Under the pieces are notes generated by a model that saw nothing but the letters and a program-made list of their open reading frames with translations, searched no databases and had not been told where the DNA came from. From a bacterium (GTDB lineage: Bacteria > Armatimonadota > Chthonomonadetes > Chthonomonadales > Chthonomonadaceae), in assembly GCA_021777995.1 (NCBI GenBank), contig JAJYCW010000004.1:1-64000 (forward strand): DNA of 64,000 bases. The letters run 5' to 3'. The position numbers and the translations under genes are program-made. Positions 3,790 to 54,466 of this stretch are shown piece after piece. Position 1 is the stretch's first letter. Every line of letters starts with the position of its first letter.

Positions 3790-3828
3790 CGACACCCTCC
3801 TACGGCGTACCTATTCAGAAGGGTGTCG
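3790..3828 (-). other. Inverted repeat downstream of the VOC gene
   Basis: CGACACCCT (3790-3798) pairs perfectly with AGGGTGTCG (3820-3828) across a 21-base loop, about 30 bases past the stop of the VOC gene. There is no clear T-tract, so it is only a weak terminator candidate. Confidence 0.35.
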
Positions 3829-42804: not shown

Positions 42805-44511
42805 TTAAGTTCCCTTTTCGACCGAATCAGGCACCGATGCTGGATTAATGTCCTTGTTCCCGTGGTTACCTGCGACCACAACAACAGTTGTTGCTGTGAT
42901 ATCACCAGTGATCTCTGTAAACCCGTCTACGGTTGATCCAGTGGTAATTGGGACACGACGAACTGTGGTTCCGGTTTCAGCTAGGATATACGCGCCTCGG
43001 GTGCCCCAGTGGATGGCTGAGACCGGCACGGTGAGCGCTCCGCGATGCACGCCAGTATCAATGGCAATAGTTGCTGTCATATCTGGGCGGATTCCAGGAG
43101 GTAACCGATCGAATCCGCACACCACATCGTACGTCACGACATTCTGTTGAAGGGTCGACGATGGTGCTATGCGAATAACATGTCCTTCGTAGGGATGATC
43201 AGGAAAACTGTCTACGGTAATCTCAACTCGCTGGCCGGGCCGAACCTTGCCTATATCTGTTTCATCAACGTACGCGTCAACCTGCAGCTTTCGCAGATCT
43301 GCTACTACCACTAACGTAGGTGCCGACAACCCGGCCGCCACAGTTTCCCCCTGCTGGCTGGCCAACGTCAATACCGTGCCGGAAATTGGAGTAACAATGC
43401 GGTCTTTATTCTTTAGATCCTGATAATAATTCACCTGAGCTGCAGCAAGACGCACTGCCTGTTGAGCTGCAGCGATGTCCTGCAGTTTCATCGAATTCTG
43501 AACGGTTTCGGCTCTGGTAAGCTGTACCTGGTTTAGCGCCTTGTTGTATGCGTCGCGTTGCTGTGCCACAGACATAGGCAGCGCTGCGTCCCGCCTTGCA
43601 AGCGCACGTTCTGCTGCCAAACCTTCACTTGCTGTAACGAGATCCTGGCGAGCAGATTTTATCTGGAGCGGAAGGGATACGCGAAGCGTTGCAAGCTGTT
43701 GCTGCGCCGTCGCCAAATCGGCATCCGCGGAGAGCGCAGCAGCACGAGCAGCATCACAAACGGTAGGGGCGATGTAACCGCGATCTAATAAGGCTTGATC
43801 GCGCTTGTAATCAGCCTGCGCATTATCGTAGGCAGCCTTGGCCTTGAGTACTAAGGCTTCGGCAGCTGCCACCTGAGAATTCTGTGTACCTGTAAGCAAT
43901 CCTAGTTTGGCCTTTGCCGACTTAACCGCGGCAACAGCCTGGCTTAGTGCGGCTGCAGTCTGTTGGGGCTGCTCTTTAGCGACAACTCTGCTCTGGTTGA
44001 GCTGTTCGCGACTTGCCATTGCGTCCTGACGAGCCTGAATAACCGCGTCCCTGTCCTGGGCAAACTGCAAGGCAGCGGCAGATCGCTGTTGGGCAAGTCG
44101 AGTCCTTGCCGTTTGTAGATTCGCCTCAGACTGCTGGAGCTGGGCGCTCATTTCTGGCAGGTCCAAATCTGCAATTACCTGCCCCGCACGCACTGTTTGC
44201 CCTACTGTAGCATACAGTCGCGAGATACGACCGCTGACCTGCGATCCAATTTTCACTTGATAGCCCGTCTGCACACTCACTACACCAGATGCCTCAATTG
44301 TTTGGGGTATAGTTCGCACCTCAACAGATGCAGTCTTGAACTGGGACGTTCCTGCAGACTGGCGCCGTAGAGTCGCCCAGCCTAAGGAGAGCACTGCAAG
44401 CGAGCAGAGTATGAGGCTGGCAGCCCGCACTCGAATGGTATGAGCGGGAGTCGCCTGATCCGCCTGCTGCGGCGCGGGTGCATTCACCTCTCGGCGCAAA
44501 CCATTCATCAT
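42805..44511 (-). CDS. Periplasmic adaptor (MacA/HlyD-type membrane-fusion protein)
   Basis: Membrane-fusion protein (568 aa). N-terminal membrane anchor at about residues 28-45. A barrel-sandwich half follows (TGYQVKIGSQVSGRIS), then an unusually long coiled coil (about 110-340, many Gln/Ala repeats), the second lipoyl-like half (PISGTVLTLASQQGE) and beta-barrel/membrane-proximal domains. MacA proteins are usually about 370 aa, so the hairpin is clearly longer here, suggesting a deep or distant outer-membrane partner. The ATG overlaps the preceding glycosyltransferase stop (ATGA). No TolC-type gene is in the window. Confidence 0.87.
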   Translation of the reverse strand: MMNGLRREVNAPAPQQADQATPAHTIRVRAASLILCSLAVLSLGWATLRRQSAGTSQFKTASVEVRTIPQTIEASGVVSVQTGYQVKIGSQVSGRISRLYATVGQTVRAGQVIADLDLPEMSAQLQQSEANLQTARTRLAQQRSAAALQFAQDRDAVIQARQDAMASREQLNQSRVVAKEQPQQTAAALSQAVAAVKSAKAKLGLLTGTQNSQVAAAEALVLKAKAAYDNAQADYKRDQALLDRGYIAPTVCDAARAAALSADADLATAQQQLATLRVSLPLQIKSARQDLVTASEGLAAERALARRDAALPMSVAQQRDAYNKALNQVQLTRAETVQNSMKLQDIAAAQQAVRLAAAQVNYYQDLKNKDRIVTPISGTVLTLASQQGETVAAGLSAPTLVVVADLRKLQVDAYVDETDIGKVRPGQRVEITVDSFPDHPYEGHVIRIAPSSTLQQNVVTYDVVCGFDRLPPGIRPDMTATIAIDTGVHRGALTVPVSAIHWGTRGAYILAETGTTVRRVPITTGSTVDGFTEITGDITATTVVVVAGNHGNKDINPASVPDSVEKGT

Positions 44512-45683
44512 ATCGCCACCTTCGCTTTAACGACGCTCCACTCTGCAATTTGAAGTATTCGCCGGGTCGTGGCGGTCCATGTGTGCTTTTCACTAACCTG
44601 TCGACGTGCCGCCGCGCCCATTGAGAGCCTGGTTTGTGGCTGCGAGAGGAGCACCAATAGAGCATTTTGCAGATCTGCTATATCCCCTGGTGCGGTAAGC
44701 ATCCCTGAGACGCCGGAATCGATGATACACGGCATGTCACCGATATTGCTGGCGACCACAGCCATCCCCATGGCCATATACTCGTAGACTTTTAGCGGGG
44801 AGAAATAGAAGCCGTCAAGGTCGGGGTAAGGAGCTACACCAATGTCGATGGAAGCGAGATAAGCAGGCACCTGGGAGGGATCAATACCACTGGTAAACAC
44901 GATGTTGCAGGCAGGATGGCACGCTGCCATAGACTGCAGCAAAGCACGTTGGGGTCCGTCACCCACGATGAGCAGCCTGATGTTAGGCACCTGCCATGAA
45001 ACACCTACAAATGCTTGTATTAGCAGCTCTACGCCATGCCAAGGCTTCAGCCCGCCCAGAAACCCCACCGTAGTTACGTTGCTGTCTCCCAATGCCGGTG
45101 CCACGGATGGGCAGAACCGATCGACGTCTACTCCGTTTGGCACCAGATGCACTTTTCCGGTGGTGCCCGGCATGGTGCAAAGGTAATCTCGAACGCCGCT
45201 GGAGACGGCGAGTAGAGCTGACGCGGTTCTAAATACCGTTCGTGCCGTTGCCTCGGCCGCATCGATGTTGACCAGCGTTCGATACCTCATCTGTTCTTCG
45301 ATGAGAGGCGCATTAACTTCTAGCAACCCAGGAATTCCACTGGCATAGGCATGCTCCATCGCAGCAGTGCTCCATAGCGAATACCGTTCATAGACAATAT
45401 CGAACGGCCCGCGATCCCGCAGCATTCCTAAGAGATCCGCATTGCCCGCGAGCGCCTTTAGCTCACGCGCTCCAGCGTCGCTAGACTTGGGTAACGCCGG
45501 CAATGGCACCACTTGGATCTGCTTCAAACGCTCGGGAATTTCCCCGTCTACATTTCGAGCGAAAAGAGTAACGTCCGCACCCTGTTCCAGCAAGCCTGCG
45601 ATCACCTCTCTCACGTGAACCGAACAGCCCTTTGAACCAAACACGGGGACTCCGGGATCCGCACACACGTAGGCGACTCTCAT
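44508..45683 (-). CDS. Glycosyltransferase family 4
   Basis: GT-B fold glycosyltransferase (391 aa), cytosolic face. N-terminal YVCADPGVPVFGSKGCSVHVRE with a Gly-rich loop, linker near 190, then NDP-sugar-binding features: VGFLGGLKPWHGVELLI, LLIVGDGPQRALL and the donor-site E-x7-E-like SPLKVYEYMAMGMAVVASN. The donor is unknown. It overlaps both neighbours (ATGA), indicating a tightly coupled operon for a surface polysaccharide. Confidence 0.87.
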   Translation of the reverse strand: MRVAYVCADPGVPVFGSKGCSVHVREVIAGLLEQGADVTLFARNVDGEIPERLKQIQVVPLPALPKSSDAGARELKALAGNADLLGMLRDRGPFDIVYERYSLWSTAAMEHAYASGIPGLLEVNAPLIEEQMRYRTLVNIDAAEATARTVFRTASALLAVSSGVRDYLCTMPGTTGKVHLVPNGVDVDRFCPSVAPALGDSNVTTVGFLGGLKPWHGVELLIQAFVGVSWQVPNIRLLIVGDGPQRALLQSMAACHPACNIVFTSGIDPSQVPAYLASIDIGVAPYPDLDGFYFSPLKVYEYMAMGMAVVASNIGDMPCIIDSGVSGMLTAPGDIADLQNALLVLLSQPQTRLSMGAAARRQVSEKHTWTATTRRILQIAEWSVVKAKVAI

Positions 45684-46942
45684 CGAAGTGCATCCTCCAG
45701 TTCCGCAACCGAGCGATTTTCTCTGTGCCCGGAGAATAACAGTCGGCGTCGCGCCGCATTCCTGTCGGCGTCAAAATCGTGGTCAATTAGCCGACGAGCA
45801 TTTCGACACAGCTTCACTCGCAGGTCTACGTCGTATAAAAGCTGATCTAACGCCGAGGCAAGCGCTGAGGCGTCCCGTTGTCGCACCATTAAACCTGTTT
45901 CATTGTCTTTCAGGATTTCTGGTATTCCGGTAACGTCCGTGGATACAACAGGAGTACCCAGGGCCATGGCCTCAAAGATAACGTTAGGCAACCCATCGCG
46001 GTCGCCATCATCCGCAACAATACATGGAAGTGTAAATGCAGCAGCAGATTGAACAATTGTGGCCACCTCAACATGCGGAAGGGGTCCTGCAAGCCTTACA
46101 ATATCACCGAGATGAAGCCTGTTTATCTGTTCCTGCAGTGTATTCTGTAAGGGCCCCGCCCCTATAATAACGCAAGTGAACTGTTTGCCAGCGTCTCTAA
46201 GAATGCTACATGCGTTAATGAGGTGCTCAAAACCCTTCTTCGGCACCAACCGGCCCACAGCAACAATAAGGTTCTGGCGGTAAACAGGCTCTTGATAGGT
46301 AAGTCGGTCGAGTTCAAGTCCGTTGTAAATGTGTTCGACCTTGGCAGCGGCTTCACCATAGGTATTCTGCAGGTGCCGCAGGTTATATTGCGTAATGGTA
46401 ACTACCGCCGACGCTTCTTCCAGCTTTCGCCGGATATCCTCATGATCCACGGTTTCGTGGTAAATATCTTTTGCTCGTGCCGTAAAACTGAATGGCACAC
46501 CTGTAAACAGCGACGCCAATCGACATACAGTTGCCGGCTGGTTCGAGAAGGGTGCGTGCAGATGGGTGATACGTAGCTGCTTCACCTTGAACGATAAGAG
46601 TGAAGCCTGGTACACGTTGCGAGCCTCCTCCCCCTTTGCCCGCTCTAGCAGGTGCCAGAAATCTGGAAACGTTTCAGACATTCGCTGCATGGTCTCCCAG
46701 AAGACGGATGGCACCAGTGCATCAACAGGTACTGGTTCGGACTGCGGCGGTAATGGCGGCATGTAGAGATAGTTTACATTTGCCTTTACCCGCGCAATAA
46801 TATCCTGAAAGTGATGATCATTTGGCGGGCGAAGTGCGAAGATTTCGACGGGTACCCCAGCCTCTTCGTGGGCTATAATTTCGCGAACAATAAATGTTTC
46901 AGAATAACGCGGATACCGTTTCACTACAAATCCCAACTTCAT
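45680..46942 (-). CDS. Glycosyltransferase family 4 (WcaL-like)
   Basis: GT-B glycosyltransferase (420 aa). It starts GFVVKRYPRYSETFIVREI, the typical opening of colanic-acid WcaL-type enzymes. Later come HLHAPFSNQPAT, VAVGRLVPKKGFEHLI and the donor site DGLPNVIFEAMALGTPVVSTD. The ATG has GGAGGC 9 bases upstream. It is 27 bases from the preceding operon member and overlaps the next. Confidence 0.87.
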   Translation of the reverse strand: MKLGFVVKRYPRYSETFIVREIIAHEEAGVPVEIFALRPPNDHHFQDIIARVKANVNYLYMPPLPPQSEPVPVDALVPSVFWETMQRMSETFPDFWHLLERAKGEEARNVYQASLLSFKVKQLRITHLHAPFSNQPATVCRLASLFTGVPFSFTARAKDIYHETVDHEDIRRKLEEASAVVTITQYNLRHLQNTYGEAAAKVEHIYNGLELDRLTYQEPVYRQNLIVAVGRLVPKKGFEHLINACSILRDAGKQFTCVIIGAGPLQNTLQEQINRLHLGDIVRLAGPLPHVEVATIVQSAAAFTLPCIVADDGDRDGLPNVIFEAMALGTPVVSTDVTGIPEILKDNETGLMVRQRDASALASALDQLLYDVDLRVKLCRNARRLIDHDFDADRNAARRRLLFSGHRENRSVAELEDALR

Positions 46943-46969
46943 AAGAAAATGCCTCCATGGTGTAACTGG

Positions 46970-48229
46970 TTAGATTAATGAGAGCGCACAATGCGAGGCA
47001 GAACGAGGCAGTGGCGTCTGCAGGAACTGTGCAATACGTGGTACTCCGCCCATATCAAGGACATGACGAGATCGCTGCCTATTTGCCATCGGTCCATTAA
47101 GCCATGCAGTTATCGCACCGGAGGTGAGACTGGCCGGATGTAGAACACTTACGAGCCCCATATCTCGCAGCCGCTCTGCTCGTACCATCTGCTCACTTCG
47201 GGGCATAACCCGAGGAATGAGCAGCGCACGTTTCTCAAACGAAAGCACCTCCATGGTGGTGTTGTAACCGCCCATGGCCACTACACTACGAGCATGTTTC
47301 AGCAGGATTGTTGGCTCGTTTGCAAAATCGAGAACCTTCATCCCGCGGTTCCTGGCAGCAATTTTATGTAATTCCAGCCGCTGGCTGTCTGGCATGAATG
47401 GCCCTGCGACCACCAGCCCCTGCTGCCCGGTTGGCATACTTGCGGCAGCAAACGCATGCGCAACCGATGCTCCGTCCTGGCCGCCGCCCACAAGACACAG
47501 GTTGTAGCAACCAGGAGAGAGGCCCAACGAGTGCAGCTCTGCCCGTTCAATCTCGTCGTCGCCATGAAGCCGCTCACATTGGTCGAGATAGCCCGTGTAT
47601 CGAATTTTGGCGGCTAAATCGGCACAGAAATCGTACTCGCTTACCACGTCATTCAGCGTACGGTCTCCATAAACCCAAACTTCGTCATAGTTGTGAACTA
47701 TAAAAGACTGATTATTAAGCTTTGCCCATTCACGCTTCACCGCATCCGGGTCGTCTAGCACGTCGCGCATACCTAGCACCACTCTTGTATCACTGCTCTC
47801 GCGCAGATTTGCTAATACAGATTGAAGCTCTCCCAGTACACCACGAGGTACATTGTCGACTACCAGAATGTCTGGCCTGTATGACGAGATAATCGAGAGC
47901 AGCATCTGACTGCGCATGTGGATAACGCTTGCAGTTGACAGCGAAAGATAACGCGGCAGGAATGTTCCGTCCGGGTGTTTCATCAACGCCGGTAATGTTA
48001 TACAGTCCATACTCGTAGGCATTGCAAACGACCCTGCCTGCCGTGCGTCTGCTAGCATCAGGATCACTGGCTGCAACGGTGACTTGCTCATCGCCTCGGC
48101 AACTAGCAGACTTCGGCGCATGTGGCCCAAACCGACGACGCCAGATGAATACAGAACCACGCGTAAATGCCGCCTGTCATGATTGGTGGCAGCCTTATTC
48201 GCGGATGCAACCGGTTCGCTTGCTAACAT
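46970..48229 (-). CDS. Predicted glycosyltransferase (COG4671/MurG-like)
   Basis: 419 aa from the ATG at 48229, which has AGGAG 11 bases upstream; a longer frame to 48388 reads through non-coding-like sequence. The family opening is SSGVVGLGHMRRSLLVAEAM, followed by ILVVDNVPRGVLGEL and, at the C-terminus, VAMGGYNTTMEVLSFEKRALLIPRV-type donor-site sequence ending RSEQMVRAERL. It resembles MurG-type GT-B enzymes but is not MurG. It is the first gene of the glycan operon. Confidence 0.82.
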   Translation of the reverse strand: MLASEPVASANKAATNHDRRHLRVVLYSSGVVGLGHMRRSLLVAEAMSKSPLQPVILMLADARQAGSFAMPTSMDCITLPALMKHPDGTFLPRYLSLSTASVIHMRSQMLLSIISSYRPDILVVDNVPRGVLGELQSVLANLRESSDTRVVLGMRDVLDDPDAVKREWAKLNNQSFIVHNYDEVWVYGDRTLNDVVSEYDFCADLAAKIRYTGYLDQCERLHGDDEIERAELHSLGLSPGCYNLCLVGGGQDGASVAHAFAAASMPTGQQGLVVAGPFMPDSQRLELHKIAARNRGMKVLDFANEPTILLKHARSVVAMGGYNTTMEVLSFEKRALLIPRVMPRSEQMVRAERLRDMGLVSVLHPASLTSGAITAWLNGPMANRQRSRHVLDMGGVPRIAQFLQTPLPRSASHCALSLI

Positions 48230-48684
48230 GTGACAAATTTCTCCTGAAATGCGAAGGCAAACTTTCAACCAATGTCTACAGGGGATGACAATAATGAAGA
48301 AGCCACGATGCGCAGCGATAATACAAACATCGTGAAAAATACTAGAATTCGCCCACGGGTGCACTTCTAGGCAAGAGTAACCGTACAAATAAGTGGTAGA
48401 TTTGAGGAGTGGCTGATTGCGATGGTGAACTTAATAAACCCATCGCCGGGGTTTTTCCAGTACAATAGGTGTGCTAATTGAATACGTTTGTTCTACTCTG
48501 AATGACTTAGTGGGCGTCCTCCCGCTCATACCACAAGCTCCATGAGCCTCCCCTATTGATCAGGATTTGTGTTTCAGAGGGTTTGGAACAATTGTGTCGA
48601 AAGGGCACTCTAATAAAATACTGCTCATTGCGTGCCGACAAGCAAATACGGGTTTGATATTTAAATTGCTAACCTCAGGAGATA
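48230..48684. other. Divergent promoter region, glycan operon / sigma operon
   Basis: About 450 bases. The plus-strand half contains an ECF-type promoter candidate (48585-48613). The minus-strand half must hold the glycan-operon promoter, but I see no convincing -35/-10 pair. Confidence 0.55.
48585..48613 (+). promoter_or_regulatory. ECF-type promoter of the sigma/CHAT/subtilase operon
   Basis: GGAACAA (48585-48591), 17 bases, TCTAA (48609-48613). This matches the general GGAAC ... TCTAA form of ECF (SigE-like) promoters and lies about 70 bases before the ECF sigma gene, suggesting autoregulation. No good sigma70 alternative is seen in the same place. Confidence 0.5.
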
Positions 48685-49278
48685 TTGTTGAAATCAGACA
48701 GCCGCCTGGTTGAAGAATGCCTTAACGGCAACCAGCGCGCATGGGTTGAACTTATAAATCGTTATCAGCGGTTTATTTATACTGTAATCATTCGGTGCGG
48801 GCTAGATAGAAATGATGCAGATGACGTCTTTCAAAGTGTATGCCTTAGTTGGTTTCAGCACCTTGGCTCCCTCCAGGACACAGAACGGCTATCGTCGTGG
48901 CTGGCAGCCGTTACCCGTCAGCAAGTGTGCCGCCATATTCGTACAGTGAATGCAGTACGCCGCGGAGGTGGGGCGACCACTGTGTCGCTGGATGACTGCA
49001 GTATCGCAGCGCCTATCTCCACCAATCAGGAAGTGGATGCTGAGTTACTGGATCTGGAGCGACAGACGTTGCTGACGCGGGCCATTGGTGAATTACCAGA
49101 GCAGTGCCAACAGATTATCACTCTGCTGTACATGCGCAATCCCCCTTTAACCTACAGTGAGCTTACAGAGCAACTCTCCATTCCCGGAGGAAGTATAGGT
49201 CCAACTCGTGCGAGGTGCCTTGAAAAACTCAAAAAAATTCTTGGCAAATATGGGTACGACGAGTATTTATCTCTGTAG
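48685..49278 (+). CDS. ECF-type RNA polymerase sigma factor
   Basis: 197-aa sigma-70 family protein with only regions 2 and 4. Region 2 includes LINRYQRFIYTVIIRCGLDRNDADDVFQSVCL and SWLAAVTRQQV (about 20-85). Region 4 is LPEQCQQIITLLYMRNPPLTYSELTEQL with a terminal helix-turn-helix (about 135-190). A 40-residue Ser/Ala-rich linker joins them. The start is TTG; a second TTG three bases on (48688) is better spaced from AGGAG (48677-48681) and may be the real one. It leads a four-gene operon with a zinc-finger protein, a CHAT protein and a subtilase, so it likely controls that operon. Confidence 0.88.
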   Translation: MLKSDSRLVEECLNGNQRAWVELINRYQRFIYTVIIRCGLDRNDADDVFQSVCLSWFQHLGSLQDTERLSSWLAAVTRQQVCRHIRTVNAVRRGGGATTVSLDDCSIAAPISTNQEVDAELLDLERQTLLTRAIGELPEQCQQIITLLYMRNPPLTYSELTEQLSIPGGSIGPTRARCLEKLKKILGKYGYDEYLSL

Positions 49279-49366
49279 CCCTTGCATTCTTCAGTTTGTT
49301 ACCGGTTTGTTAGGCATCGAATAACTGTACCATCCAACAATCGCTCAATCAGAAAGCTGAATAGCT

Positions 49367-49990
49367 ATGCCACAAAAGCATCTCAAACCACAACAGGTAC
49401 TAGACTACCTCGAGGGAAAGCATAGCCCCCTTGCGCATGCATCAGTTCAGGCACATCTGGCACAGGGTTGCGAATCATGCAACGAGTTATCCAGATGGTG
49501 GCAGGCGGCCCTGCAGGACCTGGCCGTCGTCGGAACATCCACTGTATCCGCTCCATCCAACGTTATCGCGCGAGCCGTCGATATTTTTACCACTTCCAGC
49601 CGTGTCCAGGCTTCCTCTCCCCGGAGTCTGTTTACCGCTGCATTAGTATTTGACAGCCTTAGAAGGCCGGCACTCGCCGGCGTACGCGGCGTCACGACCT
49701 CCATTCAGCAGGTGTACCGCGCGGAAGACCACTTTATAGAACTTGGCATGGAGCGCCAGGCCGCGGGCAACTGGGCACTCATCGGTGTCATGATTCCTCC
49801 GGACAACGAACCGTTACATGGAATTAACAGGGTTGCTTTAGTCGGCCACAACGGAGCCAGCCCAGTTGTCGACTGGTCCAATATGGAGTTTTACGCTACA
49901 GGTTTAACCCCTGGTGATTACGATTTGCACCTTGACTTCGACAGCTGCACTGTAAACGTCCCTGATGTTCACGTGGGAGATACACTATGA
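49367..49990 (+). CDS. Zinc-finger anti-sigma-like protein
   Basis: 207-aa soluble protein with no membrane helix. Near the N-terminus His30, Cys35 and Cys38 (HLAQGCESC) form a ZAS-like H-x4-C-x2-C motif; classical anti-sigma factors have H-x3-C-x2-C. The middle is Ala/Ser/Val-rich. The C-terminal half (about 120-207) is beta-rich and ends in GLTPGDYDLHLDFD, a beta-sandwich-like pattern. It follows the sigma gene by 88 bases, and its stop overlaps the CHAT gene start (ATGA). A role as soluble antagonist or sensor of the sigma factor is inferred from position and motif only. No strong ribosome site precedes it. Confidence 0.68.
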   Translation: MPQKHLKPQQVLDYLEGKHSPLAHASVQAHLAQGCESCNELSRWWQAALQDLAVVGTSTVSAPSNVIARAVDIFTTSSRVQASSPRSLFTAALVFDSLRRPALAGVRGVTTSIQQVYRAEDHFIELGMERQAAGNWALIGVMIPPDNEPLHGINRVALVGHNGASPVVDWSNMEFYATGLTPGDYDLHLDFDSCTVNVPDVHVGDTL

Positions 49991-52857
49991 CCGATGCACC
50001 GGCTGGAGAGATCGACAGGTACCTATCAGATTGGCTCTGCTCTACCAATGAGATCCATCGCAGCAGCATCGTTACAGCTCTAGCATCGCATCATACTGCA
50101 TATACCGAACTTGTTCAGCGGGCGCGCGGATCGCTCGCAAACGACCCCGCAGTAAGTGAAAAGCTTGCAGAACTTGCCGCGTTGGTAGCTATGAACGCTG
50201 GTGGCCTGGCAGATTCAGCGAGCGCGTTGCGGGTACAGGGCCAGTCATTACGAGCACTGGGCCGCCATGATCAGGCGATACGCGTTCTGCAGGAGGCATC
50301 ACGCAGGGCAGCTGAAGGGGGCGACCATCGATTTAGTCGCACCGTCCTTATTGGCAGTATCGACTCGCTGGCCGTGCTAGACCAGCACAATGAGGCAGAG
50401 CAACTGGCCAGCAATCTTGCTGCGGACCTGCAAACTATGGGATTCCCCGAAGATGCGGCGCGCGCTCTGGTTAACCTGGGGAATTTGTACTTCCGCAGAG
50501 ACATGTATGAGGCAGCGATCACGACTTACGAAAAGGCACAGGCCTTGTTTGGCGAAACTGCCGAAGCCGCAATTTCAGGCGCACTGCACACCAATATTGC
50601 AAATTCGCTAACCCACCTAGACCGCATTCCAGAATCCTTGGCGCGATATTCAGCAGCACGGGAAATGTATACCAGTATCAATGATGAACTGCACATTGCC
50701 ATTGTGGATACTAACCTTGGATACCTGGAGTATGTGTCGGGCAACTATGCCCAGGCGCTTACAAGGTTCATTTCTGCTGCGGGGGTTTTTGATCGAAGTA
50801 ACCGGCCCCATGAGGCAGCACGGTGTCAAATTGATGCGGCCGGAGCTTACCTTTCGATTAGTCTTTTTCCAGAAGCGTTGCAGTGCTGCGAGCGCGCGCA
50901 AGCGCAACTTAACCAGGTGAGCGCAGGCTATGACCGCGGCAGGGCTCACCTCATAGCAGCCTCAGTTTATAACAAAATGCAAGAGCTTGATTGCGCCTCC
51001 TCGGAGCTCGCGCTTGCCGAGGGCTATTTTCGAGCAAGTCGCAATCGAGTGCAACTCGCGCATTGCGCGCTTGTGCAGGGATGGATATCCCGTAGCCGTG
51101 GGGAAATCGTACTCGCCGCAAATGCCGCGCGCCGCTCGTTACGGGCATTTCGCCAGGCGTGTCTACCAGGCTGGGCTGCCGAAGCAGGCTTTTTGCTAGC
51201 CGATATCAGGCTTGAATTAAACGACGACGCCACCCGACAGATGCGGGCAATTGCTCGGCGGGCCAGGTATGTGGGTCGCGGATGGCTTCAGTGCCGTGCC
51301 GAGTATTCACTTGCAAAGTATTTCCGCCAGAATGGTGACGAAGAGGTGGCGATGCGTCACCTTGTAAATGCAGTGGAAGCGCTAGAAGGTACCAGAACCC
51401 GCATCATTCCTGAGGACTTCCACATATCTTACATCAATGGCAAAGAGGTCATTTACACCGACCTGGTAGAGTGCCTTCTGGAGCGGGATATTGACAACGA
51501 CCTGGTGCGTGCACTGGAGTATGTGGAGAAGAGCCGATCGCGCGTGTTGCTGGAAGGAGTCACTTCAAACCGAACTGTTGCAGCGCATTTGCGAACTAAC
51601 CCCGCACTTAACACTGTTCGCGACAAACTGCAAGCACTTCGCGAACAGCTTAGCAGAGAGTATTTTTTCGGCGGTGTTCTACATACAGAAACCCGATTGC
51701 GCTCACCCGGGGCAATGCCTGCGGACAACCTTGCTGAGTTGGAGCGGTCGTATACCTCATTAGAACGCGAATACCAGTCGCTAGCATCCGCAGAAGTAGG
51801 CATTGCGCTCAATCCTTATTCTCTACCGTCGCTTCCTACTATTCAGCGCGCCCTCACCCAGGAAGAGACGCTCTTAGAGTTCTGCACGGTCGGCAACGAA
51901 ATCTGCGCTTTCGTGGTGACCCGCGATAATTTACAGGTCGTTCGTCATATTGCAGAACCACAGGACGCGGCCCGGGCCGCGCAGCGACTGCGGTTTCACC
52001 TGCAGCGTTACAGCGGTAGTAGTGAGTACGTGCAGGCAATACTTCCCCATATTGCCGCCGCCGTTGACAACTCTCTTCAATGCCTTTACGATCTGCTTCT
52101 TGCACGTCTTTTGCCCCAAATTTCAGCCAAGCGAATCATTCTTGCACCGCACGGTGCACTTCATGGCCTCCCGTTCCATGCATTCCAAGGACCGAACGGC
52201 CCCGTGATTCGCGACTATGAAATTCTTTACACTCCCAGTTGCTCCGTATGGCACGCGGTCCAAACCAGGTCTACTTCAGGTGTACTGCCTAGCCCAGAAG
52301 ATAGTTCACTGATTTTAGGAATTCCCGGCACTGGGTACGAAGGTGTTGCACAAGAAGCAGAGCAGGTTTCTCGCCTGATGCCTCATTCCACGCTTCGCAC
52401 TGGAGAGCAGGCGACACTCGCGGAATTTCAGAGATTGGCGCCGAAGTCTTCGTTCATACACCTAGCCGCTCACGCAGAATTTAGGAGCGACAACCCGCTC
52501 TTTTCAGGGCTGCGCCTGGCTGACGGTTGGCTGCATGCACGCGACATCTACGATATGCAATTGAACTGCAAACTAGTCACACTTTCCGCCTGCAGCACGG
52601 GATCCGTAGGGGTTGCACCAGGCGACGAACTGATGGGTTTAACACGAGGTTTTCTTTTGGCGGGTGCCAGTAATGTTGCTGCGAGCCTTTGGGCTGCAGA
52701 TGACAAAACCACAGTAACGATCATGCAACGCTTTTATGCACACCTGGTACGGGGAGAAGCGCCTCCGGCCGCATTGCGGCTGGCTCAGCTAGAGACCTAT
52801 GAAACTGAACATCAGGCCTATCTGTGGGCACCCTTTATCATAGTGGGCGGACGGTAA
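49987..52857 (+). CDS. TPR-CHAT protein (caspase-like protease fold)
   Basis: Cytosolic protein (956 aa). From about residue 70 to 480 there are ten or so TPR-like helical repeats (e.g. RALVNLGNLYFRRDMYEAAI, HTNIANSLTHLDRIPESLA). A coiled region follows, then a C-terminal CHAT domain (about 640-956). The caspase-type dyad is intact: His829 in HLAAHAEF and Cys869 in LSACSTG. The GASNVAASLWAADDKTT motif typical of CHAT follows. CHAT proteins are cysteine proteases activated through their repeats. The neighbours (ECF sigma, zinc-finger protein, subtilase) suggest that a proteolytic output is switched by signals sensed by the TPRs. The start overlaps the preceding stop. Confidence 0.9.
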   Translation: MTDAPAGEIDRYLSDWLCSTNEIHRSSIVTALASHHTAYTELVQRARGSLANDPAVSEKLAELAALVAMNAGGLADSASALRVQGQSLRALGRHDQAIRVLQEASRRAAEGGDHRFSRTVLIGSIDSLAVLDQHNEAEQLASNLAADLQTMGFPEDAARALVNLGNLYFRRDMYEAAITTYEKAQALFGETAEAAISGALHTNIANSLTHLDRIPESLARYSAAREMYTSINDELHIAIVDTNLGYLEYVSGNYAQALTRFISAAGVFDRSNRPHEAARCQIDAAGAYLSISLFPEALQCCERAQAQLNQVSAGYDRGRAHLIAASVYNKMQELDCASSELALAEGYFRASRNRVQLAHCALVQGWISRSRGEIVLAANAARRSLRAFRQACLPGWAAEAGFLLADIRLELNDDATRQMRAIARRARYVGRGWLQCRAEYSLAKYFRQNGDEEVAMRHLVNAVEALEGTRTRIIPEDFHISYINGKEVIYTDLVECLLERDIDNDLVRALEYVEKSRSRVLLEGVTSNRTVAAHLRTNPALNTVRDKLQALREQLSREYFFGGVLHTETRLRSPGAMPADNLAELERSYTSLEREYQSLASAEVGIALNPYSLPSLPTIQRALTQEETLLEFCTVGNEICAFVVTRDNLQVVRHIAEPQDAARAAQRLRFHLQRYSGSSEYVQAILPHIAAAVDNSLQCLYDLLLARLLPQISAKRIILAPHGALHGLPFHAFQGPNGPVIRDYEILYTPSCSVWHAVQTRSTSGVLPSPEDSSLILGIPGTGYEGVAQEAEQVSRLMPHSTLRTGEQATLAEFQRLAPKSSFIHLAAHAEFRSDNPLFSGLRLADGWLHARDIYDMQLNCKLVTLSACSTGSVGVAPGDELMGLTRGFLLAGASNVAASLWAADDKTTVTIMQRFYAHLVRGEAPPAALRLAQLETYETEHQAYLWAPFIIVGGR

Positions 52858-52874
52858 TTCGAAGGAGACACTTT

Positions 52875-54095
52875 ATGCCGAGCACATCATATGCAGTATC
52901 CAGAATGCTATTTGCCGCGAAATTAGCGGCTGTAGTTTCTGTACTTTCCCTGTTAAGTCTGCAGGTTACGCCTGCACAGGCACAGGCGGATGCAGCTGAT
53001 ACAATTGTGGTGGCGCTAATGCCTGGAACCAGCCCAAGCACCGTGGCCGCTGAGTTAAACACAACAGTAATAGACGTTGCAGACGGCGGGACTATCTGTA
53101 CCTTAGCAGTTCCCAGCGATACTACCGCTGCGGCATTTACGACTACTGCCGGCACCAGCCCGGGAGTGCTTTCTGCAGAGGCCGATGCGGTTATTGGCAC
53201 CAAGACAACATACTCTGCCCAGATTCATGTGGCTTTTGATGCAGGTGGACAACCGGGCGCTTATGTTGATCCTTCAGTGACGTCACAAGTAGATGGCTAC
53301 CCTACCGAAAACAGTGGCGTCGGAATGGGAACAGTTGTTGCAGTGATAGACACAGGTGTTGACCTTGAACATCCTGCGCTGCAGGGCCATCTTATTCAGG
53401 GGGCCAATATGATCAGTAGCTCAGCGGCTGCCGAAGATCTTCCTGACGGACTATTGAATGATGGTGTGGGGCATGGGACAATGGTGGCCGGTATCATTGC
53501 TGAGTATGCACCGGGCGCACAGATAATGCCAATACGGGTACTGAACGGCGATGGCATGGGCACAATCATGACAGTGGTGAAGGGAATAGAGTATGCCATC
53601 CACCATGGTGCCAATGTAATCAATCTTAGCCTGGGGACGAACACATACAGCGATGCACTGGAAGACGCCATAGAGGATGCCTACAAAGCTGGCGTAATCG
53701 TGGTTGCCGCGGCAGGAAACAACGGGTCGCAGGTCGCTCACTATCCGGCCGCACTACCCAACGTTATTTCCGTCGCAGCGGTAGACCAATACAATGTTAA
53801 ACCTGCCTGGTCAAACTACGGTCCATCCGTATGCGTGTGCGCCCCCGGGGTTGGAATCCGCAGCACCTATTGGAATGGCGGTTACGCCAACTGGTCAGGT
53901 ACCTCGTTCTCTGCTCCCTTCGTTTCTGCTGAGGCGGCTGACGTTCTCTCTAGCTCATCCGAAATGAGTGTAGACGATGTTACACATCGAATATGCGATA
54001 CGGCTAACGGAATTGGTGACCAGAATCCCCTGTTTGAAGGATTGCTTGGCGAAGGTATCATCGACATTCAGAACGCATCTGGCGGCGACAACTAA
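52875..54095 (+). CDS. Secreted subtilisin-like serine protease (S8)
   Basis: 406 aa from the ATG at 52875, preceded by AGGAG at 7 bases; the open frame extends to 52824 inside the CHAT gene. The signal peptide has a hydrophobic core, LAAVVSVLSLLSLQV, ending near AQA. An inhibitory-propeptide-like region (about 40-120) precedes the catalytic domain with the full triad: Asp159 (AVIDTGVD), His200 (GHGTMVAG) and Ser344 (GTSFSAPF). The oxyanion Asn lies in AAAGNNGS. The enzyme is likely extracytoplasmic, self-maturing and co-expressed with the CHAT protein (17-base gap). Substrate unknown. Confidence 0.92.
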   Translation: MPSTSYAVSRMLFAAKLAAVVSVLSLLSLQVTPAQAQADAADTIVVALMPGTSPSTVAAELNTTVIDVADGGTICTLAVPSDTTAAAFTTTAGTSPGVLSAEADAVIGTKTTYSAQIHVAFDAGGQPGAYVDPSVTSQVDGYPTENSGVGMGTVVAVIDTGVDLEHPALQGHLIQGANMISSSAAAEDLPDGLLNDGVGHGTMVAGIIAEYAPGAQIMPIRVLNGDGMGTIMTVVKGIEYAIHHGANVINLSLGTNTYSDALEDAIEDAYKAGVIVVAAAGNNGSQVAHYPAALPNVISVAAVDQYNVKPAWSNYGPSVCVCAPGVGIRSTYWNGGYANWSGTSFSAPFVSAEAADVLSSSSEMSVDDVTHRICDTANGIGDQNPLFEGLLGEGIIDIQNASGGDN

Positions 54096-54466
54096 TACAA
54101 CACTACCTCAGGCTATCGAGTCTCCTCTAGGTCATGACTGCCCAGAGAAGACTCGATTTCACTTCGCCTCGGCTGTAGCGCACGATCTTCTGGCGGCAAA
54201 ACTAAGCGCATTGTCCAGACGCAACCGGCGTTCTTGATTAAAGCCCTCACACCCCCAAATTCTATGCATTAACGGGAGTAACAGCAACTTTCGAGCAGAT
54301 TATTGAACATAATCCGATAGCACTATTAGTCGCGTTGTCGGCGAAACCTGGTGCAGGATGCATCAACTGTACAGGGCACTCATGTAATGAATCCCAAAAC
54401 CGGGTTGGTAGCCTGGACGTGGTCCGTCGAAGATTATACGCGTATGTCGGCGCGATGCTGATCACC
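54096..54466. other. Convergent intergenic region
   Basis: Contains the terminator hairpin at 54115-54160. The open frames here (for instance 54335-54748) are antisense to the esterase gene and lack ribosome sites. No RNA or repeat was recognised. Confidence 0.55.
54115..54160 (+). terminator. Terminator of the sigma/CHAT/subtilase operon
   Basis: A 14-bp stem with one mismatch, left arm 54115-54128 (ATCGAGTCTCCTCT), right arm 54144-54157 (AGAGAAGACTCGAT), then TTTCACTT, 20 bases after the subtilase stop. Confidence 0.7.

Follow-up and report, generated by a model that had tools for sequence, protein, structure and literature searches.

In a window of 64,000 nucleotides, which is the whole stretch of DNA analyzed here, from a member of the Chthonomonadaceae (Armatimonadota; GCA_021777995.1, contig JAJYCW010000004.1, positions 1–64,000), four co-directional plus-strand genes (48685–54095) encode an extracytoplasmic-function (ECF) sigma factor, a zinc-finger protein of 207 aa, a TPR-CHAT protease, and an S8 protease of the subtilase type (Table 1). 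The first two genes lie 88 bases apart, the second and third overlap by 4 bases (ATGA), and the gap of 17 bases between the last two contains a good ribosome site, in agreement with an earlier sequence-only reading, which had described an operon with overlaps or gaps of less than 90 bases. We propose, with our belief in the proposal evenly balanced, that this operon constitutes a self-contained proteolytic switch, in which the CHAT protease cuts an anti-sigma protein after Arg107 and thus frees the sigma factor, with the S8 protease as the output. The gene set, the anti-sigma domain, the conserved promoter, the CHAT active site, and the export of the S8 protease are the computed support for this proposal.

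Table 1. Features of the sigma/anti-sigma/CHAT/S8 locus (coordinates in the window).
Feature	Coordinates	Strand	Details and basis
ECF-type promoter GGAACA-N18-TCTAA	48585..48614	+	Invariant, with identical spacing, in four genomes
ECF sigma factor, 197 aa	48685..49278	+	TTG start; region 4 with the motif SIGPTRARCL
Predicted soluble anti-sigma protein, 207 aa	49367..49990	+	Alignment, AlphaFold2 model, profile matches
Zinc-type anti-sigma domain, four helices	49367..49591	+	Ligands H5, H30, C35, C38; alignment, profiles
CarboxypepD_reg-like/Ig-like beta-sandwich	49625..49987	+	CarboxypepD_reg matches among homologues; model strands
Arg107 codon, proposed CHAT cleavage site A-G-V-R/G (cut after R)	49685..49687	+	Flexible loop; conservation, inference
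TPR-CHAT protease, 956 aa	49987..52857	+	Pfam CHAT and TPR; model; Foldseek
CHAT domain	52072..52848	+	H829 (52471–52473), C869 (52591–52593), possible S1 acid D906 (52702–52704); alignment, model
Exported S8 subtilase, 406 aa	52875..54095	+	Signal peptide, prodomain, full triad; Pfam S8
RNA hairpin, possible terminator	54115..54157	+	20 bases past the last stop; fold z −2.95; inverted repeat of 17 nt, 88%

The genome of the window contains a single CHAT gene, along with 4 S8 and 28 sigma-70 genes. A scan of GTDB genomes yielded 80 loci, and in the 48 whose CHAT gene was flanked on either side by 2.5 kb or more the neighbors comprised the zinc-finger/beta protein 44 times, the S8 protease 40 times, and the sigma factor 39 times, with all four genes together at 32 loci; this association is far beyond chance. 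The exact gene order of the window was seen 18 times, and the order sigma–CHAT–zinc finger–S8 10 times, mainly in the Acidobacteriota; the membership thus stays constant while the order changes, which circumstance argues for a functional coupling. The set recurs in the Armatimonadota, the Chloroflexota, and the Acidobacteriota, so that the search for the four genes elsewhere that the sequence-only reading had proposed revealed a neighborhood conserved across phyla. Among the close CHAT homologues of the Armatimonadota on judgeable contigs, the beta protein stood beside the CHAT gene and the S8 gene behind it in 12 of 12, with the sigma gene adjacent or near in nearly all of these loci. Nonomuraea possesses a rearranged relative, in which the sigma factor, a zinc-free beta protein, the S8 protease, and the CHAT protein occur together, and Chloroflexota-like loci (L174–L183) combine a divergent sigma factor, an anti-sigma protein with two tandem zinc fingers, and a CHAT protein, the S8 gene being mostly missing. 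In a small control, the CHAT genes outside the subfamily (L048–L051) were without these neighbors; a tblastn search of plasmids with the CHAT protein returned unrelated CHAT contexts only, and no fusion of the anti-sigma and CHAT proteins was present among the loci examined. One set of loci, that of L075, had been assigned to the Actinomycetota and more likely belongs to the Chloroflexota; the actinobacterial evidence therefore consists of Nonomuraea and Miltoncostaea only. On the plasmid of Miltoncostaea oceani (L197, 7974–9370) a sigma gene related to that of the window is directly followed by that of a short S8 protease, and CHAT genes are missing from the vicinity.

The sigma factor was recognized by Pfam (Sigma70_r2, 5.8e-11; r4, 3.9e-06) and NCBIfam (sigma70-ECF, 5.7e-20). 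The ECF-like promoter that the sequence-only reading had placed before the operon was recovered by footprinting, the motif being present upstream of the sigma gene in four genomes whose other upstream DNA does not align. In the three genomes searched, exact copies occurred once per genome, in front of this sigma gene. This pattern makes it probable that the sigma factor of the operon uses the promoter, and since the exact copy is unique to the operon the factor may act chiefly on that operon; a looser regulon beyond it may also exist. The self-amplification put forward earlier thus accords with a promoter that, by computation, looks autoregulated. Among 52 loci that included distant relatives the motif was found in five, namely the four close ones and one poor match; the autoregulation is therefore supported only within the family.

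On its own, the 207-aa protein had no Pfam match. In an alignment of 66 homologues, zf-HC2 was detected in 28, an NCBIfam anti-sigma model in 31, and CarboxypepD_reg in 26, and the zinc ligands H30, C35, and C38 were complete in 48, most of which 48 displayed the pattern H/C-H-C-C; one protein, that of L103, was dropped from the family as a doubtful member. When compared with solved structures, the family profile matched RsiW (6.5e-5), DdvA (1.2e-4), ChrR (3.5e-3), and RsrA (0.075), as well as the anti-sigma-like protein 3hug. The AlphaFold2 model (mean predicted local distance difference test [pLDDT] 88) consisted of a four-helix bundle and an Ig-like sandwich, and a Foldseek search with that model against the PDB gave generic Ig-like matches only, none with an E-value below 0.001. 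The anti-sigma part of the profile had eight other matches in the genome of the window, all eight just downstream of a sigma-70 gene. The ligand pattern (H/C, then H-x3-4-C-x2-C) in a helical N-terminal domain, the similarity to known domains, and the position beside a sigma gene place the protein among the zinc-type anti-sigma (ZAS)/zf-HC2 proteins, which computed identity is the one assumed by the sequence-only reading. From the profiles and the model, we predict that the protein comprises a zinc-type anti-sigma domain followed by a carboxypeptidase-regulatory-like beta-sandwich. Its N-terminal domain resembles those of RsiW, ChrR, and RsrA by profile and predicted fold; unlike these proteins, however, it has no transmembrane segment and carries the CarboxypepD_reg-like domain. 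With the same anti-sigma profile, at least eight further sigma/anti-sigma pairs were thus found in the genome of the window (contigs C10, C40, C62, C63, C78, C83, and C194).

The 956-aa protein matched Pfam CHAT (1.1e-53) in addition to TPR repeats. Both residues of the His829/Cys869 dyad, earlier read as intact, were found exactly as described and were invariant in all 22 aligned CHAT proteins and later in 79 of 79, which latter count is partly biased because the scan pattern contained the Cys motif. The CHAT fold together with the dyad places the protein among the CHAT peptidases, and proteolysis is predicted from these two features. The nearest solved chains by sequence were those of Csx29 (3.7e-15), and the model of the TPR-CHAT protease (pLDDT 87.4) had separase and Csx29 as its top Foldseek matches, DdvA being also found. 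With separase (peptidase C50), the best of those matches, the protein shares a helical repeat array followed by a caspase-like domain, whereas the Pfam C50 match was only E 0.11, corresponding to no sequence membership, and the biology is different. Separase substrates have Arg at P1, and a published model of separase has that Arg bound by two acids, namely a Glu that follows strand 1 and an Asp at the N-terminus of helix alpha4 (PMC4626109). In the window's protein D906, invariant in 78 of 78 CHATs, opens the helix that comes after the last core strands (strand 896–900 of the model), and might thus occupy a position like that of the P1-Arg-binding Asp; in Csx29 the aligned residues are non-acidic.

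A candidate for the cut site emerged from 91 homologues of the 207-aa protein, which had been gathered without this motif, although those of L174–L193 came from a search with the family profile. Only Arg107 and Gly140 were invariant among them: Gly140 sits in the beta core, and Arg107 lies in a loop that is modeled as a low-confidence coil (residues 97–111) and varies in length on both sides. In 85 of the 91 proteins Arg107 was followed by a small residue (G, S, A, or D), and in 69 the position two before it likewise held a small one (G or A), the surroundings being otherwise variable. Judged from the alignment, this A-G-x-R/G-or-S pattern looks like a conserved protease site, Arg107 is the candidate position of the CHAT cut, and a cleavage of the anti-sigma protein by the CHAT protease is plausible.

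The last protein of the operon is a member of the S8 family (Pfam Peptidase_S8, 2.8e-49) with an Asp-His-Ser triad, and nearly every homologous S8 protease begins with an export signal; the secreted S8 protease with a full triad of the earlier account is thus confirmed by conservation. This exported enzyme is probably the output of the operon. In some relatives the sigma and anti-sigma genes are separated by genes whose products are exported, being lipoprotein-like or beta-rich surface proteins, which arrangement likewise points to an exported output. Examples of such inserted genes lie at 3820–5310 of L058, 5398–6987 of L062, and 11733–14489 of L037. Of the two roles envisaged earlier for the subtilase, that of an exported product stood, whereas an involvement in the maturation of the switch is unlikely, given the export of the enzyme and its absence from some loci. 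The terminator claimed behind the operon is partly supported: the hairpin is strong, but has no following T run and was not among the calls of the terminator scan.

From these data we infer the sigma binding, the cut, its site, the cue, and the output in the following manner. The N-terminal helical domain of the anti-sigma protein would hold the ECF sigma factor inactive, and the C-terminal beta-sandwich would form the recognition module for the TPR-CHAT protein. If the TPR array sensed a cue, the CHAT protease would cut the anti-sigma protein after Arg107, in the loop that lies close to the beginning of the beta-sandwich, which cleavage would free the sigma factor. The latter would then use the promoter at 48585 to transcribe the operon that encodes it, so amplifying the switch, and the induction would produce the exported subtilase as the usual output. 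Several observations weigh against this proposal. About 17 of 65 homologues have lost the zinc ligands, in several independent events, and in 7 of those approximately 17 zinc-free proteins the first helices are gone as well, the others having kept the helices, so that the anti-sigma domain can be dispensed with in places. The S8 gene is missing at some loci, and the invariant Arg107 can also be structural. Furthermore, D906 is probably general to CHAT domains, and the position of the other separase acid, the Glu, is apparently a His in the window's protein; a preference of the CHAT protease for Arg is therefore suggested only.

In an alternative reading no cleavage occurs, and the zinc or the beta domain would sense a signal, whereupon a change in shape would free the sigma factor, as in RsrA and ChrR, with the CHAT and S8 proteins being output proteases that act elsewhere. 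The anti-sigma domain does match factors released by redox changes or ligands, the C-terminal domain of ChrR is also of a beta type, and the CHAT and S8 genes share the transcription unit, as outputs would. Nevertheless, we consider this alternative unlikely: the partner most constantly seen with the anti-sigma protein is CHAT rather than S8, several loci with sigma, anti-sigma, and CHAT genes being without S8; a zinc-based sensing is disfavored in that many members have lost their zinc ligands; and the invariant Arg107 of the loop would be left unexplained.

A second group of known systems, the ECF54 sigma factors, likewise has CHAT, subtilase, and carboxypeptidase-type genes as neighbors. 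In the passages on ECF54 of a review, proteolytic control is proposed because of the adjacency of those genes (Casas-Pastor 2021 and Huang 2015, via PMC8999054). Those passages describe ECF54 as having no anti-sigma factor, whereas here, and in most relatives outside the Actinomycetota, a zinc-type anti-sigma domain forms part of the beta protein; we accordingly did not file the window's sigma factor as ECF54. The S8 protease of the ECF54-like Nonomuraea locus, moreover, has no signal peptide, whereas that of the window is exported. In keeping with the control without an anti-sigma factor put forward for ECF54 (PMC8999054), the CHAT or the S8 protease might destroy or process the sigma factor itself, so that the system is kept off, but such a course appears improbable since most members carry the anti-sigma domain, no motif resembling a cut site was found in the sigma factor, and the exported S8 protease cannot meet a cytoplasmic one.

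Two characterized systems share the proposed logic. In the type III-E CRISPR system CASP, Csx29 cuts Csx30, an inhibitor of an ECF sigma factor, beside Met427; the cut lies in a small loop of the C-terminal domain of Csx30 (PMC10028731). Both systems combine a TPR-CHAT protease with an ECF sigma factor and its inhibitor, whereas the inhibitor of the window is unrelated to Csx30, being of the zinc type, and its cut is predicted at an Arg. Membership in type III-E was rejected upon a score of 40.9 bits with the NCBIfam Csx29 model against a cut-off of 300, and no Cas genes were recognized in the operon or the flanking open reading frames; neither Cas7-11 nor a CRISPR was seen. In DdvS-DdvA of Myxococcus xanthus (PDB 8rlz, 8rot, and 8rw5) an ECF sigma factor is controlled by a zinc-type anti-sigma domain with CHAT, there within one transmembrane polypeptide, whereas here the anti-sigma and CHAT moieties are separate, soluble proteins accompanied by an S8 protease; by analogy, the window's system looks like a split form of DdvA. 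A role in defense or regulated cell death, in the manner of CASP or of other caspase-like immune systems, would fit Csx29 as the nearest solved CHAT by sequence and the occurrence of CHAT proteases in immune systems (PMC10028731), but is just as improbable as a destruction of the sigma factor, in that PADLOC gave generic TPR and subtilase matches only, no toxin or pore gene and no Rfam match were found nearby, the flanks are syntenic between related genomes, and the S8 protease is exported rather than a cytoplasmic killer.

The term uncharacterized, applied to the system by the sequence-only reading, must consequently be narrowed, since proteolytic control has already been proposed for ECF54 (PMC8999054) and both DdvA and Csx29-Csx30 are characterized relatives in logic. 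What may be new is the anti-sigma domain on the carboxypeptidase-type protein in most lineages outside the Actinomycetota, together with the extent across phyla, the invariant Arg, and the operon-specific promoter, parts of which may be contained in the supplements of the founding ECF papers. The operon would join three themes: the ECF54 factors, for which an anti-sigma factor is said to be missing; DdvA, a transmembrane anti-sigma factor with a CHAT domain; and the CRISPR cascade Csx29-Csx30-sigma. The CHAT proteins of bacteria are mostly without a known substrate, and this operon brings together a likely substrate, a candidate for the cut site, and a promoter suited as a reporter. The data suggest that in bacteria a separase-like cutter serves to switch genes without CRISPR; if so, the caspase-like proteases of several phyla would include ordinary switches of transcription, beyond their roles as enzymes of immunity or death. 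More tentatively, and somewhat short of an even balance, we propose that such CRISPR-free separase/caspase-like switches are widespread, with the TPR-CHAT protease cutting a soluble zinc-type anti-sigma protein at the invariant Arg, the sigma factor having its own operon as its main or only target, and a secreted subtilase being the usual output.

Two further observations concern neighboring and related DNA. Upstream of the operon (42805–48388 of the window), a divergent cluster, made up of three glycosyltransferase-like genes and one for a membrane fusion protein of the HlyD-like type, is syntenic in two relatives. One of the control loci (L051; G013:C1:497000-516000) contains a tandem pair of CHAT genes with an in-frame tandem repeat, RPIDTPS, whose copy number differs between the two.

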